DNA of 64,000 nt from an uncultured Bacilli bacterium (GTDB taxonomy: Bacteria > Bacillota_I > Bacilli_A > RFN20 > CAG-631). Under the pieces are notes generated by a model, which was not told the DNA's origin, made no database searches, and was given only the letters and a program-made list of their open reading frames with translations. Positions 8,134-49,621 of the stretch are shown one piece after another. Position 1 is the first letter of the stretch, and each line of letters begins with the position of its first letter. Position numbers and translations under genes: made by a program. The stretch lies in contig CANQVX010000002.1 of assembly GCA_947627355.1 (NCBI GenBank), forward strand, positions 1 through 64,000, read 5' to 3'.

Positions 8134-9078
8134 ATGAAAATGATTTCAATTGCTGTTCCTTGCTATAATGAACAAGAAACAATTCCTGCTTTTTATCAAG
8201 CTATTATTCCTGTTTTAAAACAAATTGGTCTTGATTATGAAGTTATTTTTGTTGATGATGGTTCAAAAGATGATACAGCAAAAATTATTAAAGACTTAGC
8301 AAACAACGATAGTCATATCAAATACGTTATTTTTAGTAGAAATTTTGGTAAAGAAAGTGCTATGTATGCTGGACTTTCTAGTACAAAAGGTGATTATGTT
8401 GCCATCATGGATGTTGATTTGCAAGATCCACCAGAAAAACTAATTGATATGTATAACGGCATTGCTTTTGAAGGTTATGATTGTGTTGGTTTAAGAAGAG
8501 TTACTAGAGAAGGAGAACCTAAGATTCGTTCTTTCTTTGCAAGACAATTTTATAAAACAATTAATAAAATGTCAGAAACTGAAATAGTTGATGGCGCTAG
8601 AGATTATCGACTAATGACAAGAAAAATGGTTGATGCCATTTTATCAGTTGAAGAATACAATCGTTTTTCAAAAGGTATCTTTAGTTGGGTTGGATTTAAA
8701 ACTAAATGGTTAGAATATAAAAATGTTCAAAGAGTGGCTGGAGAAACTAAGTGGAATTTTAAAAAGTTACTTCGTTATTCTATCGATGGAATCATTGCTT
8801 TTTCAACATCACCACTTAAAATGATAACTAAACTTGGCATCTCATTTATCGTTTTATCATTTCTAATGGCTATCACAGCAGTTATACTTGCTGTTGTTCC
8901 TAAACATATTGTTTTCCATAGTGGTTGGCCATATTTAAGCATTGTTTTAGTTTTCTTGTTTGGTGTTTTATTTGTATGTCTAGGTGTTATGAGTCAATAT
9001 CTAGCAAAAACCTATGCTGAAGTAAAACATAGACCAATCTATATTGAAAAAGAATCAAATGTAAATAAGAAAAAATAA
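8134..9078 (+). CDS. Family 2 glycosyltransferase, GtrB/DPM1-like, with C-terminal TM helices
   Basis: ISIAVPCYNEQETIPAFY, VDDGSKDDT, MDVDLQDPPE. Confidence 0.93.
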   Translation: MKMISIAVPCYNEQETIPAFYQAIIPVLKQIGLDYEVIFVDDGSKDDTAKIIKDLANNDSHIKYVIFSRNFGKESAMYAGLSSTKGDYVAIMDVDLQDPPEKLIDMYNGIAFEGYDCVGLRRVTREGEPKIRSFFARQFYKTINKMSETEIVDGARDYRLMTRKMVDAILSVEEYNRFSKGIFSWVGFKTKWLEYKNVQRVAGETKWNFKKLLRYSIDGIIAFSTSPLKMITKLGISFIVLSFLMAITAVILAVVPKHIVFHSGWPYLSIVLVFLFGVLFVCLGVMSQYLAKTYAEVKHRPIYIEKESNVNKKK

Positions 9079-30350: not shown

Positions 30351-30404
30351 TTTCTTTTTTCAAGATAATAGACAAAACAACTCAAAACAAGTATAATGTA
30401 GACA

Positions 30405-30484
30405 CCATAAAGAGAACGGCTAGAGACAAGCTCCAAACCGTCAGCAACCTTTTAAGTAAGGTGCTAAAGCTTGAACGATGGGAT
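30405..30484 (+). promoter_or_regulatory. SAM-I-like (S-box) riboswitch aptamer
   Basis: AGAGAACGGCTAGAGACAAGCTCCAAACCGTCAGCAACCTTTTAAGTAAGGTGCTAAAGCTTGAACGATGGGA retains CAGCAACC and AAGGTGCTAA core; promoter TAGACA-N17-TATAAT upstream. Confidence 0.65.
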
Positions 30485-30502
30485 ATATTATTATAAATAT
30501 TT

Positions 30503-30532
30503 ACTCCTATCGTGTCGATGGGAGTTTTTTTA
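30503..30532 (+). terminator. Riboswitch terminator with competing antiterminator
   Basis: ACTCCTATCGtgtCGATGGGAGTTTTTTT; CGATGGGA also at 30476-30483. Confidence 0.85.
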
Positions 30533-41667: not shown

Positions 41668-41821
41668 ATAATTTTAGGCGTAAAAAAACCGAGATAATCA
41701 ACCTCGATTTTTTTATAATTCCGAAAAAATAAGGTTCTATCGTAATAGACCCTATGCAAAAACGCCGAAGCATTTTTTTCTGCTAAGTTTAGATTATCAC
41801 AAGAAATTGCGCGTGTCAAAT
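41668..41821 (-). ncRNA. Candidate structured RNA unit, copy 1 (distal), downstream of abiF-like gene
   Basis: Minus strand: TTGACA (41819-41814) N17 TAATCT (41796-41791) with TGn extended -10; TCTAT-TACG-ATAGA hairpin; terminator CGAG...CTCGGTTTTTTT; near-identical to copy 2. Confidence 0.72.
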
Positions 41822-41878
41822 TATTTTTTTTAAATTTTTATTGAGTAACGTGATAAAATTAATAAAACAAAGAAAAAA

Positions 41879-42032
41879 ATAATTTTAGGCGTAAAAAAAC
41901 CGAGACGCGCGACCTCGATTTTTTAATAATTCTTAAAAACTAGAACTCTATCGTAATAGATTCCTCACAAAAACGCCGAAGCATTTTTTCCTCTAAAATT
42001 AGAATATCACAAGAAAGTGCTTGTGTCAATTT
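41879..42032 (-). ncRNA. Candidate structured RNA unit, copy 2 (proximal), promoter abutting abiF-like stop codon
   Basis: Minus strand: TTGACA (42029-42024) N17 TATTCT (42006-42001) with TGn; same hairpin and CGAGGTCGCGCGTCTCGGTTTTTTT terminator. Confidence 0.75.
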
Positions 42033-43017
42033 AACATTTAAAGTTGTTGGATATGATTTTATAAAAATAGTTATATACAGATTTTAATTGTTCATTATTC
42101 ACATAATAATTTTTGTGTAGAATAAACCTACCATAAAACAATTTGTTGATTTCTTCACACACATATTGTTTAATACCATCACTAGTTACGATTTCGTTAA
42201 ATAAATATAGAGTATATGTTATTTGTCTAATGCTTGAATTGCAAAGCTTATTATGTCTTATATCCTTGCTTATTCCACAATTTCTTAGATATTTAATTAC
42301 AGATCTATCCGGGATGCTATTATTATCTTTTACGAAAAGATTAGATAATATACAAACATTATGAGCAACGGCGTTTCGTAATTTTCTTGCTTCATTTAAT
42401 GCGAAAAAATATTTTTTTTCATTTAAAGCGTAGTAATCAGTAAAAAATTTAAAAAACTTAATTAATTCGCCAAAAGAAACAATTTTTAGAAATTCCCATA
42501 ATGGAAGGTTTTCTATTTTCTTATCCTCTTGCAAATTATATTTTAAAAATGTTGCTTTATAATATTCACTAGTCTTTTTTGACATAATACTGTTGTGTAT
42601 GAGTTTTGGATGTTGCGGATCATTATAATCTTCATCAAGAAAAAGATTTACGATGTTATAGCCATCCTCTCCAGGAATAGATTCAACAAGTTTTGATATT
42701 TTAAGTTTTAAATAATGTTCGATGCTGGTAGTCATATTAAAAAGCAAAAGCCTTAATCTATAATCAATAATTGCTAAATCAATTAGATAAGCGAAGTCCA
42801 AATCGATATATTTGCCTTTTAGTTCACCACATTGATAAACAGGAAAATTATTTTTATATGATGTCACGTTTTCATAACTATTATTATCTGACAAATATTT
42901 CATGGCATCGGCCACACTATAAAATTCAAACTTAATATTCTTTTCAATTAAATGTTGAATCATTTCGGGTATAGTTAACATTTTCTCTAATGTATTTACT
43001 GTTTGATTTGCGTTCAT
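42031..43017 (-). CDS. AbiF/AbiD (Abi_2) family protein with HEPN Rx4H motif
   Basis: RLRLLLFNMTTSIEHYLKLKI; EARKLRNAVAHN (R-NAVA-H at 42361-42378); RBS AAAGGAGGTGAAAAAATG supports start at 43017. Confidence 0.85.
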   Translation of the reverse strand: MNANQTVNTLEKMLTIPEMIQHLIEKNIKFEFYSVADAMKYLSDNNSYENVTSYKNNFPVYQCGELKGKYIDLDFAYLIDLAIIDYRLRLLLFNMTTSIEHYLKLKISKLVESIPGEDGYNIVNLFLDEDYNDPQHPKLIHNSIMSKKTSEYYKATFLKYNLQEDKKIENLPLWEFLKIVSFGELIKFFKFFTDYYALNEKKYFFALNEARKLRNAVAHNVCILSNLFVKDNNSIPDRSVIKYLRNCGISKDIRHNKLCNSSIRQITYTLYLFNEIVTSDGIKQYVCEEINKLFYGRFILHKNYYVNNEQLKSVYNYFYKIISNNFKC

Positions 43018-43271
43018 TTTTTCACCTCCTTTTTTAGTTAAATTATATAACATAATTAAGTCAAAAAACAAACAAAAAGATGTTTAAAATTTGTCGGTAA
43101 AAACGGGAAAAATTATGAAATTTTGCTAAAAAATTTATAAGAAAAAATTGACAAAAATTTGATACAAATTTGATATGTTTTTTTGCTTGTATTTAACATT
43201 TTTATTAAATATTTAATGTTAATTTAAAGTGTCTATGTTATACTTTTTAACTAGATAGGACGGATAATAAA

Positions 43272-45600: not shown

Positions 45601-45929
45601 TAAAATTATCGATAGAAACGGATAAAATTGTTAAAAGGAAGATGTAAAAGTCTTCTTTTTTCATAATTGCATCAAATAAGTGTCATATTTAAATCAATAA
45701 AAGCATAAATTAGTCTTATGCTTATTATAAAAACACGATAAAAACGATAAAATTGATAAAAATATATTTATCTTAAATTTCTCTATTTTTATTGATTCTA
45801 TCGACAAATTTTATGTTTTTGTTATTTCTATTACCTATATTTGGAAATTCATGTACAAAAATCTCGTTGAATTTTTAACTATAATCATTTAAAATGATTA
45901 TAATTAAATTTGTGAAAGGAACCCATTAC

Positions 45930-46649
45930 ATGCGTCATCAAGGAAAAATAACATTTATTTTGACTCTTATGCTTATTTCCCTCATTAGTGTGGGTTTTTC
46001 ATCATGGAAACTTTCTGATGAAGGAACAATTTATGGCAACATAAAAGCAGATAATGTTATCAATGCTGGCGAATATATTAAATATAATGCTGATCAAAGT
46101 AATTTAAATTCGAAATTCGTTTATTCTGAAGATGGATTTGTTGTAATCAATCCAGCTTATACTTCTTCAAATTACGAAGGAATAGAACCATATTTAACCT
46201 CTTATGATGTTTCTTTTGATGTTGTATACGACCTTGATTTCCAAACACTTGTTGGTTATTTAACTGCTGGCAATCATATAACTACAGTTAAAGAAGCAAT
46301 CGTAACATTTACATTAGCTTATTCTAATAAAGTTGACGAAAACGTTATTAGTTTGTTCAAAGGTGAAGCAAACTGCAGTGATGCTCTTAAAGAACTTTCT
46401 ACAGGCTCGGTTAATGCTTATTCTCAAATATCACCAGATAAAAGTGCTCGCTATTTTAAACGCTCAATATCATTTTCAAAAGAAAACAAAAAACAAGAAT
46501 TGCTTGCAACAAAGCAACGATTTCAAATTACATATACAATTAGCGTTAGTGACAATCATCAAAATGCTGAATATTTTAAAGCCAACATTTATCCATCATT
46601 AAGCAAAATCGAATTCGAAATGCAAACCGAATTAACGGTTGTATATTGA
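45930..46649 (+). CDS. Secreted protein with SipW/CalY-like signal (TasA/camelysin-like)
   Basis: MRHQGKITFILTLMLISLISVGFSSWKLSDEGTI N-term shared with next gene. Confidence 0.5.
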   Translation: MRHQGKITFILTLMLISLISVGFSSWKLSDEGTIYGNIKADNVINAGEYIKYNADQSNLNSKFVYSEDGFVVINPAYTSSNYEGIEPYLTSYDVSFDVVYDLDFQTLVGYLTAGNHITTVKEAIVTFTLAYSNKVDENVISLFKGEANCSDALKELSTGSVNAYSQISPDKSARYFKRSISFSKENKKQELLATKQRFQITYTISVSDNHQNAEYFKANIYPSLSKIEFEMQTELTVVY

Positions 46650-46660
46650 GGTAAAATAAT

Positions 46661-49621
46661 ATGAAAACGAAGAAAAATTTTAAATTTCATTATTTCTTTT
46701 TGATATTAATTTTAGCCTCTGTGTTTATTTCAGTTGGCTCTGCCACCTGGAAACTTTTTGGTCGCGACACAATTGGCACTCCAAAATATGATGAAGGAAA
46801 CAAACTTGCTAAATACTTTGATGAGTCTTATAGTGTTGTGTATAATGGCGAAACACAATCCACTATACCTTCATTCAAGGAAGGAAATCCCGGAGATAAA
46901 CAACTAACAGATTTCAATTATAAATTTACAAAATATCACACAACAACAACTGCAACACCAAAAGATGCTAACAAATATACTGTTGCTATAACTCCAAAAA
47001 ATAATTCAAGCACTCAACCTCTATATGTAACATTAACAATTGAAAAAAGAAAAGTAAAACTTAACAAGGATACGGTTGAAATTGATTATACAGGAACACA
47101 TCCAACAGTATCAACAATACTAAATAATCAATTTGTAGATGCTGAAACATATTCAGATGGTAAGAATGGTGTTTGTGTACCTGAATATACTACCGATTAT
47201 AGTATTAGCAATTTAACTAATGGGGTAGAACAACATAAAACCAACACAATTGATGTTGGTAGTACATATACCGGCACAATTAATCAAAATGCAAACTCTA
47301 ATTTTGAAATTCAAGGAACGAATTTTGTATTAAAATATAAAACCGTTCAATGGGATAGTGATAACAAATACTATACTATTGAAGATGCTTTAAATATTGC
47401 AACATCTGGCACATTAACAGTTAAAGCAAACACTTCGTTTGCTGGTGTTAGTGTTGCCAAAAAAGAATATGATGCAACAGGAGAAACAGCGACATATACA
47501 ATAAATCCCAACACGGAATTGTTGCTTCCATATGATGGAACAAATGGACATGCATATGATTCTAATCTTACAGCTTCATCATTTAATAATAACTTAAAAT
47601 TAGAATTAATAATAGCTCCTAACATAACTCTTAACAATAACAATGGAACGATAACTATTGGTGGAGTTACAACAGGAGCGCAAGGTGGATATTCTGGTGG
47701 AACCGCCGGAGATTATGCTCAAATAACAATGGATAGCAACTCTAAAATTATATCTACAGGAAATATTATTTCCTGGGGATTTATAGTTGAAAAAAACGCA
47801 AACAATGGTTCTCAAGTTGAAATAAAATCAGGGATGATAAAACTGCCATTTATAGTATATGAACATAGAGGAGGGACACAATTTGTTGATATGGTTGGTG
47901 GAGCTGGGAAAGCCGATAATCCAGAATTATATACATCACCATTTAATGTGTTTTACATGGAAAATGTTCGTGTTAAATTAATTGTTGACAGTGGTGCAAA
48001 CGTCGAGGGGCACGCAAATTTACACACATCTACGCCAAATCAAGATAACACCACAGACATAAATATAGTTGGAACAAGCGATAAAAGTTTGATTAATTTA
48101 TCTCCCGGAACAAAAATGGTTGTTAAATGTGTTAATGGTATTTCTGATTTGGAAATTATAGGAAGCGCTGTTGTAAATCATCTTTCTATTACATTATCGG
48201 TATTAAGTAAAACAGTAACTTTGACTACCGAACAGGTTCATTTTCCTATTTCGTATAGATACAACGTTACACTTAGTCCGTATGAAAATAGACCATCAGT
48301 AGTAACAGCAACAGCACAAAAACTAAAACTACTTCCTAGTTCAACGTTGACGGTTTCAAAAAACGTCACATTTGAAGTTGATGAACTTGTTGTTTACGAT
48401 AAAAGTTCTTTGAGTGATTTAGATGACCCAGGAATAATACCTTATCCAAAAAAAGACACAGACGCATATTTAATCGTAAATGGAACGATAACCGGAAATA
48501 GTATCGCCGGAAAAGTTCAAACTAGCGAAAAAGAAAGTGGGGCGGTTTTAAGAACCACAAAAGGAAACTCAATTACTACTCAAGAATTAAAAGTAAAAAA
48601 TACCTTAAGTTTAGTTGACACATTGCTTGGAAAAGGACACACTTCACAATATAAGGAAATAACTCAAGTATTAATTGGACCGATATATGATAGTGGAGTT
48701 GTTAGTAATTTATCCGTTGGAATGTATGTTTCAAAAGATGGCATGTGGGATACAGCAGATCAAACATTTAATGTAAGTTATAAGTACATGTTAAAGAGTG
48801 ATAACGGAGTAAACAAACTTATTGGACAAGATATTAATAACACAAACGTTACTCAATATAACTTGCAAGAAACTTATCCATTGAATAATCTTGAATTATC
48901 CGGATATACTTTCTTAGGATGGTATAGTGATGAAAAATGCGAAACTAAGATTGACCAATTAGTGGGTGCTCAATTCTATGGAGATATAACATTATATGGA
49001 TTATTTGAATTGAAGAAAGTAGATTCATTATACATTCAATATGAAATAACTAAAGAAGGTTATGACTCATCTAAATATAGTCCATTAACATTGTCTATTG
49101 ACAGTATCGATGCTTATAATCCATTTGAAGACAAATGGTTAACTCAAGACGACTATAACATTTATGTTGAGCAATATTTTGGTGGTTGGACAATTGTTGT
49201 TAGTGGGCAAGAAATTGGAACCTATTCGGATGTAGAAAGTTTGAGAACAGCACTTAAATCAGAACAAGTTCCTGGTGGTAGCGAAGTAACATTAAGAACT
49301 AAATATAGTCAAAAAATTAAACTCACTTTTACTGTTACTGCAACAAGCGAAAAGAAGATTGGTGGGGGTAGTGATAAGCACGCAAGTGCTGAAATAATTA
49401 TTGATAAATCGAAAGAAACCGAACAAAGAAAATCGCTGAGCGCAACAGGAAAAGGCGCGGGATTACTTGAATCTGTAGGAAAAGAAACTTTCAGCGAAGA
49501 AATGTGGCTTCGTCCTGGACAAACATATGATGTTACGATTACTGAAGGAAAAATATCGTCTGGAAGTCAATCAGGAACAGCCGAAAGCACAGACATCAAC
49601 ATAACTGTAAGCAATACATAA
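46661..49621 (+). CDS. Large secreted surface protein with MBG-like and InlB B-repeat-like domains
   Basis: N-term ILASVFISVGSATWKLFG; SVVYNGETQSTIPSF; LELSGYTFLGWYSDEKCETKI...YGDITLYGLFE. Confidence 0.7.
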   Translation: MKTKKNFKFHYFFLILILASVFISVGSATWKLFGRDTIGTPKYDEGNKLAKYFDESYSVVYNGETQSTIPSFKEGNPGDKQLTDFNYKFTKYHTTTTATPKDANKYTVAITPKNNSSTQPLYVTLTIEKRKVKLNKDTVEIDYTGTHPTVSTILNNQFVDAETYSDGKNGVCVPEYTTDYSISNLTNGVEQHKTNTIDVGSTYTGTINQNANSNFEIQGTNFVLKYKTVQWDSDNKYYTIEDALNIATSGTLTVKANTSFAGVSVAKKEYDATGETATYTINPNTELLLPYDGTNGHAYDSNLTASSFNNNLKLELIIAPNITLNNNNGTITIGGVTTGAQGGYSGGTAGDYAQITMDSNSKIISTGNIISWGFIVEKNANNGSQVEIKSGMIKLPFIVYEHRGGTQFVDMVGGAGKADNPELYTSPFNVFYMENVRVKLIVDSGANVEGHANLHTSTPNQDNTTDINIVGTSDKSLINLSPGTKMVVKCVNGISDLEIIGSAVVNHLSITLSVLSKTVTLTTEQVHFPISYRYNVTLSPYENRPSVVTATAQKLKLLPSSTLTVSKNVTFEVDELVVYDKSSLSDLDDPGIIPYPKKDTDAYLIVNGTITGNSIAGKVQTSEKESGAVLRTTKGNSITTQELKVKNTLSLVDTLLGKGHTSQYKEITQVLIGPIYDSGVVSNLSVGMYVSKDGMWDTADQTFNVSYKYMLKSDNGVNKLIGQDINNTNVTQYNLQETYPLNNLELSGYTFLGWYSDEKCETKIDQLVGAQFYGDITLYGLFELKKVDSLYIQYEITKEGYDSSKYSPLTLSIDSIDAYNPFEDKWLTQDDYNIYVEQYFGGWTIVVSGQEIGTYSDVESLRTALKSEQVPGGSEVTLRTKYSQKIKLTFTVTATSEKKIGGGSDKHASAEIIIDKSKETEQRKSLSATGKGAGLLESVGKETFSEEMWLRPGQTYDVTITEGKISSGSQSGTAESTDINITVSNT

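Follow-up and report, generated by a model that had tools for sequence, protein, structure and literature searches.

What might two short hairpin units, repeated in tandem behind a toxin-like gene, do for that gene? The question arises in a 64,000-nucleotide (nt) stretch of an uncultured Bacilli bacterium (assembly GCA_947627355.1, contig CANQVX010000002.1; hereafter the window), in which two units of the same design lie on the minus strand directly 3′ of a gene for an Abi_2 protein (Table 1). An earlier note, made from the letters of the window, had described one hairpin of these units and had not recognised their link to the adjoining gene. We read the locus, with a probability of roughly 0.78, as an AbiF-like, type III-like toxin–antitoxin module in which the gene for the RNA antitoxin lies downstream of the toxin gene and has a promoter of its own. 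A shared protein fold, tight linkage and the structure of the RNA make it most likely that this RNA serves as antitoxin to the Abi_2 protein.

RNA units stand behind Abi_2 genes

Each unit opens with a TTGACA box and, 17 bases on, a TATAAT-like box, which together resemble a sigma-70 promoter, and continues with a 66-nt core made up of an A-rich hairpin (hairpin 1), a second hairpin (hairpin 2) and a U-tract, after which an extra hairpin stands between an A-tract and a U-tract. This extra terminator hairpin is confined to the units of the source genome and to a relic in a congener (G001); in most other loci the U-tract of hairpin 2 is the last element. Compared with shuffled sequences, unit 1 folds far better (z = -3.9), and unit 2, taken alone, does not (z = -1.0). 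A consensus promoter scan of the window found no excess of promoter-like sites (12 versus 12.2), so our promoter calls rest on the fixed position of these sites across the family.

The position of the RNA behind the Abi_2 stop codon is near-obligate. The source genome carries three Abi_2 genes, and the two outside the window (contigs C1 and C4) each have one unit in the same place. As an independent test, the whole genome was searched with a covariance model built from 38 units, none of them from this genome (R2), and nothing matched at E up to 0.1 except four units behind the three Abi_2 genes. The congener G001 retains a decayed unit at a locus with no Abi_2 gene, beside an apparent glucose-6-phosphate isomerase gene; the C4 copy in the source genome is located next to the same apparent gene. 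A DNA search in relatives matched only the source genome and the G001 relic, with weaker matches at chance level.

Scanning contigs with nine Abi_2 relatives yielded 79 loci; uncultured gut Bacilli supplied nearly all of them, and Clostridia some. In most of these loci, a promoter-like site and the same pair of hairpins are found at the stop codon. Seventy of 87 examined matches to a second model, built from 42 units (R1), begin 5-62 nt after an Abi_2 stop codon. The exceptions are partly explained by frame-shifted genes and second tandem units, and at one locus (L061) about 1.1 kb, read as an insertion element, separates the unit from the 3′ end of its gene. A TTGAC..TANNNT site was present at 63 of 77 Abi_2 stops versus 7 of 260 other open reading frame stops in the same loci. 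More distant homologues (24-33% identity) occur on plasmids of Kurthia, Ligilactobacillus and Vagococcus, in streptococcal satellite phages and in gut phages, often with a promoter-like site at or just after the stop codon and two hairpins behind it. Among those tested against R1 there was one clear match, from a gut phage (E = 2.7e-4), and nothing convincing was found behind the gene in L153 and L154. From the family name and the homologues on mobile elements, it is probable that the Abi_2 gene and its RNA units constitute an abortive-infection module.

Units also occur in other arrangements. Two loci (L042 and L070) have one unit on either side of the Abi_2 gene, both with promoter-like sites, and one genome (G046; contigs C1, C3, C28, C53 and C56; L018, L022 and L024-L028) holds seven Abi_2 genes, several with a downstream unit or tandem pair. 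Another contig of that genome has three tandem units about 190 bases apart on a stretch with no Abi_2 gene (L138, 1312-1756, minus strand), which may be orphan antitoxins; a further solo unit (L123, 767-833, minus strand; E = 3.2e-11) lies in genome G017, where no Abi_2 gene was found. In the window, positions 8610-8682 on the plus strand resemble the units at a borderline level (E = 0.011 with R2 and 0.13 with R1).

Table 1. The Abi_2 gene and its two downstream RNA units in the window. A4 and A7 are alignments of 42 units and of 66 distinct units.
Feature	Position	Strand	Basis or remark
Abi_2/AbiF-type HEPN protein gene	42031..43017	minus	328 amino acids; ATG with GGAGG-like ribosome site before it
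Unit 2 promoter-like site, TTGACA-17-TATTCT, TG ahead of second hexamer	42001..42029	minus	directly after Abi_2 stop codon
RNA unit 2 core	41936..42001	minus	R2 model match, E 6.3e-8
Unit 2 hairpin 1, AAAAAUGC-UUCG-GCGUUUUU	41969..41988	minus	helix 1 of A4/A7
Unit 2 hairpin 2, GGAAUCUAU-UACG-AUAGAGUUC, A.G mismatch	41943..41964	minus	helix 2 of A4/A7
Unit 2 separate terminator hairpin, A and U tracts, may act bidirectionally	41893..41924	minus	sequence, fold
Unit 1 promoter-like site, TTGACA-17-TAATCT, weaker second hexamer, TG ahead	41791..41819	minus	under promoter-scan cut-off
RNA unit 1 core	41725..41790	minus	R2 model match, E 1.6e-8
Unit 1 hairpin 1, AAAAAUGC-UUCG-GCGUUUUU	41758..41777	minus	helix 1 of A4/A7
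Unit 1 hairpin 2, AGGGUCUAU-UACG-AUAGAACCU, G.A mismatch	41732..41753	minus	helix 2 of A4/A7
Unit 1 separate terminator hairpin, A and U tracts	41682..41714	minus	sequence, fold

Base pairing is kept more than sequence

The earlier note had proposed that hairpin 2 keeps its structure more than its sequence, and had named a wider alignment, to be searched for covarying pairs in this stem, as the test of that proposal. Alignments of 42 units and of 66 distinct units contain such pairs, with pair 7 among the strongest. The details also held. Both copies lie on the minus strand where they had been placed (41753-41732 and 41964-41943), they share the same loop and the same pairs 1-5, pair 6 is a purine–purine mismatch in each (G.A in copy 1 and A.G in copy 2), pair 7 changes from G-C in copy 1 to A-U in copy 2, and the terminator loops of the two units differ. 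To these we add a second two-sided change at pair 9, from A-U to G-C, and a change from G-C to G.U at pair 8. In the wider family the loop of hairpin 2 varies, reading UUACGA in 10 of 66 distinct units. A pairing suggested between GGCGT near the 5′ end and ACGCC after the terminator did not fare as well: GGCGT already forms the 3′ arm of hairpin 1, ACGCC lies behind the U-tract at which most other loci stop, and of the four units in the source genome, three retain the match and one has lost it. We rejected it as a general feature of the units.

The alignment of 42 units (A4) was made with MAFFT and was not fitted to the structure; that of 66 distinct units (A7) was model-aligned and is thus biased towards it. 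In A4, 91.6% of cells are paired, versus 84.3% with shuffled partners and 41-56% with slid ones, and 11 of 17 pairs show two-sided changes. Hairpin 1 is paired in 97.6-97.8% of cells (A4/A7), and its loop-side pairs range over AU, GC, UA, CG and GU types; pair 7 of hairpin 2 (A4 columns 42-64) is GC in 33, AU in 6 and GU in 2 of 42 units. Covariation was assessed against a custom tree-aware null, not R-scape. Over all column pairs of A7, one pair reached E < 0.05. In the two-set form of the test, which counts the 17 proposed pairs only, four pairs passed in A4 (0.001 to 0.046, rescaled) and five had E < 0.05 in A7, including pair 7 of hairpin 2 (0.004). On the A7 tree, the structure accounts for 37 pair-keeping two-sided changes; random pair sets average 1.3.

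This pattern bears on two other ways in which the units could work. A small RNA with its own promoter-like site beside a toxin-like gene could base-pair as an antisense RNA with toxin or phage mRNA, as in type I systems, in which case its link to the Abi_2 protein would be regulatory only. We consider this very unlikely: the RNA is encoded on the same strand as the Abi_2 gene and behind it, not antisense to it, and only pairs, not stem sequences, are kept. Because the stems change sequence while preserving pairs, no target sequence is kept in them. Alternatively, each unit could be a small peptide gene, in which AGGAAAAAAUG would supply the start codon and a ribosome site (the peptide would begin MLRRFC.. 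in the window and MLNHFCKG.. in relatives). Of the 78 units read, 53 have an ATG after the A-tract and 13 a GTG, but 12 units have no start, the frames run from 5 to 48 amino acids with unrelated ends, loop lengths vary by 1-2 bases and so shift the frame, and the changes preserve base pairs, not codons. On these grounds the coding reading, the chance of which we regard as minute, was rejected.

The purine–purine mismatch is a feature of the family and extends beyond the two window copies. One or two mismatches occupy two neighbouring mid-helix positions of hairpin 2, either of which may be used, in 54 of 66 distinct units. Of these mismatches, 61 in all, 59 are A.A, G.G, A.G or G.A; at all other pairs, 22 of 981 cells are non-pairing. 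Units with no mismatch include those on C1 and C4 of the source genome. The mismatch is a likely point of contact with the protein. It also speaks to the suggestion that the hairpins do no more than terminate transcription of the Abi_2 gene and nearby genes, and were copied along with the locus. The U-tract after hairpin 2 and the further terminator hairpin in the units of the source genome would fit such a role, but a terminator has no need of a promoter just ahead of it, a conserved hairpin 1 or a conserved mismatch, and promoter-like sites are rare at the stops of other genes in these loci. We judge this reading highly improbable.

The Abi_2 protein has a predicted AbiF-type fold

The gene beside the units probably encodes a HEPN ribonuclease (a longer open reading frame, 42031-43071, would start with TTG). 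Its product contains a PF07751 domain (E = 2.2e-21; 77.4 bits against a gathering score of 25.6), matches the PADLOC AbiD model (E = 9.9e-17) and carries the HEPN motif (R-polar-xxx-H) as RNAVAH, of which R, N and H are invariant across 39 aligned Abi_2 proteins. An AlphaFold2 model of the protein alone, computed from 39 sequences, has a mean pLDDT of 92. Its top match among solved structures is PbAbiF bound to its noncoding RNA (ncRNA; 8VZ6), over 266 residues with Z = 15.8 and 13% identity, and the next matches, CasRx (Z = 6.1) and LbuCas13a (Z = 5.7), are far lower. A sequence-profile search of the PDB had missed 8VZ6, which fold comparison recovered. On this model, the protein is a member of the HEPN family with an AbiF-type fold. 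In a protein tree, its clade stands apart from AbiF of phage phiC2 and similar proteins, although the deep forks are unsure because of long branches.

The same kinship raises the idea that the RNA is mainly an activator, sensor or guide-like co-factor of the Abi_2 protein, in a complex switched on by a phage signal as in Cas13. Abi_2 and AbiF proteins are structurally near Cas13, AbiF has been described as a Cas13 ancestor (PMC12737573), and linkage and covariation are compatible with any RNA–protein partnership. The units, however, have no spacer-like variable segment, their single-stranded parts being short and conserved, and in both described AbiF systems the RNA inhibits (PMC12373285, PMC12737573). 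An activating role is thus unlikely in our view. Cas13 of type VI CRISPR shares a related HEPN fold with the window module, which differs in having no array, no spacers and a single HEPN domain per chain.

Comparison with known RNA antitoxins

The nearest counterpart of the proposed antitoxin is the two-hairpin ncRNA RCd22, which neutralises the toxicity of AbiF_Cd from the Clostridioides difficile prophage phi027 by direct binding; breaking its stems abolishes neutralisation, and compensatory base-pair swaps do not (PMC12373285). RCd22 is about 100 nt long, has a sigma-A promoter and lies upstream of abiF, with which it is co-transcribed by read-through while its terminator attenuates the toxin transcript (PMC12373285). 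Both loci combine an Abi_2 HEPN protein with an adjacent RNA of two hairpins and a terminator, in which hairpin structure outweighs sequence. They differ in that the window RNA is downstream with its own promoter-like site, and in that the RCd22 hairpins, unlike the window units, match the abiF RNA family RF03085, with its 6-nt 3′ bulge. That family likewise comprises short hairpin RNAs tied to abiF genes, but in an upstream position, whereas units of the window type begin 5-62 nt after the stop. PbAbiF (8VZ6; Zilberzwige-Tal et al. 2025), which shares the predicted fold, is a HEPN dimer bound by one small ncRNA per monomer, and an RNA bulge blocks its nuclease activity (described in PMC12737573). 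In type III toxin–antitoxin systems, RNA repeats of 34-50 nt lie upstream of the toxin gene and in the same transcript (PMC12373285). The window module resembles such systems (ToxIN, CptIN, TenpIN and AbiQ) in its tandem RNA units and, putatively, in an RNA-held ribonuclease; it has another toxin fold and units of about 66 nt, which are downstream and each have a promoter-like site. The type III layout of tandem repeats upstream, co-transcribed and with a terminator between is not that of the window units.

By analogy, each tandem unit would be transcribed from its own promoter into a small two-hairpin ncRNA, and two units would give a higher RNA dose. The folded RNA would bind the Abi_2 protein through hairpin 1 and the mismatched hairpin 2 and block the HEPN active site; if the RNA were lost or titrated, for example during phage takeover, the nuclease would be freed and growth would stop. 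Given its downstream position and separate promoter, the RNA would act only in trans, as an RNA–protein complex, and would not attenuate the toxin transcript. Toxin transcripts that read through would stop at the terminators of the RNA and have it as their 3′ tail.

Several observations weigh against this reading. The window RNA does not match RF03085 and differs from it in shape: the covariance model, with its threshold of 37 bits, hit nothing in the window at E values up to 10 and nothing in 9 related loci or 58 related genomes, the last search having no positive control of its own; the control RCd22 was found by the model at 37.6 bits. BLASTP gave no meaningful alignment of the window protein with AbiF_Cd, consistent with remote similarity. 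One member of the clade (L073/L026) has no unit behind its Abi_2 gene, and solo units with no Abi_2 gene nearby exist (G017:C49, and three in tandem on G046:C92). Finally, when all 2145 column pairs of A4 were compared with the tree-aware null, no pair had E < 0.05, the best structural pair reaching 0.18.

Going a step further, we tentatively suggest, at somewhat less than an even chance, that the RNA belongs to a separate antitoxin family and is not a diverged abiF RNA. An Abi_2 clade of gut Bacilli, Clostridia, plasmids, streptococcal satellite phages and gut phages would then be paired with a downstream, independently transcribed, trans-acting two-hairpin RNA. Rfam searches at the gathering score and at E up to 10 returned only chance-level matches at the units, and likewise at nine related and 16 more distant loci. 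A literature search, to which Zilberzwige-Tal et al. 2025 was external, found no downstream RNA described for this clade; that study reportedly contains covariance models for AbiF5 and for diverse RNAs, and these may already cover the window RNA family in part.

If this suggestion holds, RNA has been joined to the HEPN scaffold that led to Cas13 in at least two ways. A structurally different second RNA, with its own promoter and on the opposite side of the gene, would offer a natural comparison of the RNA features that a HEPN scaffold needs, which bears on the step from RNA antitoxin to guide RNA. The family could also aid annotation, by helping to find such modules, missed by Rfam, in uncultured gut Bacilli, plasmids and satellite phages of culturable bacteria.

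Other features of the window and related loci

Matches to a TPP riboswitch and to 6S RNA were found in related loci (L107, 4184-4287; L070, 4615-4793). In the window, positions 30400-30510 on the plus strand match a SAM-I/IV riboswitch slightly over the gathering score. Also on the plus strand, two adjoining genes (45894-49621) encode secreted-looking proteins with similar starts, the second of which, at 986 amino acids, is surface-protein-like.
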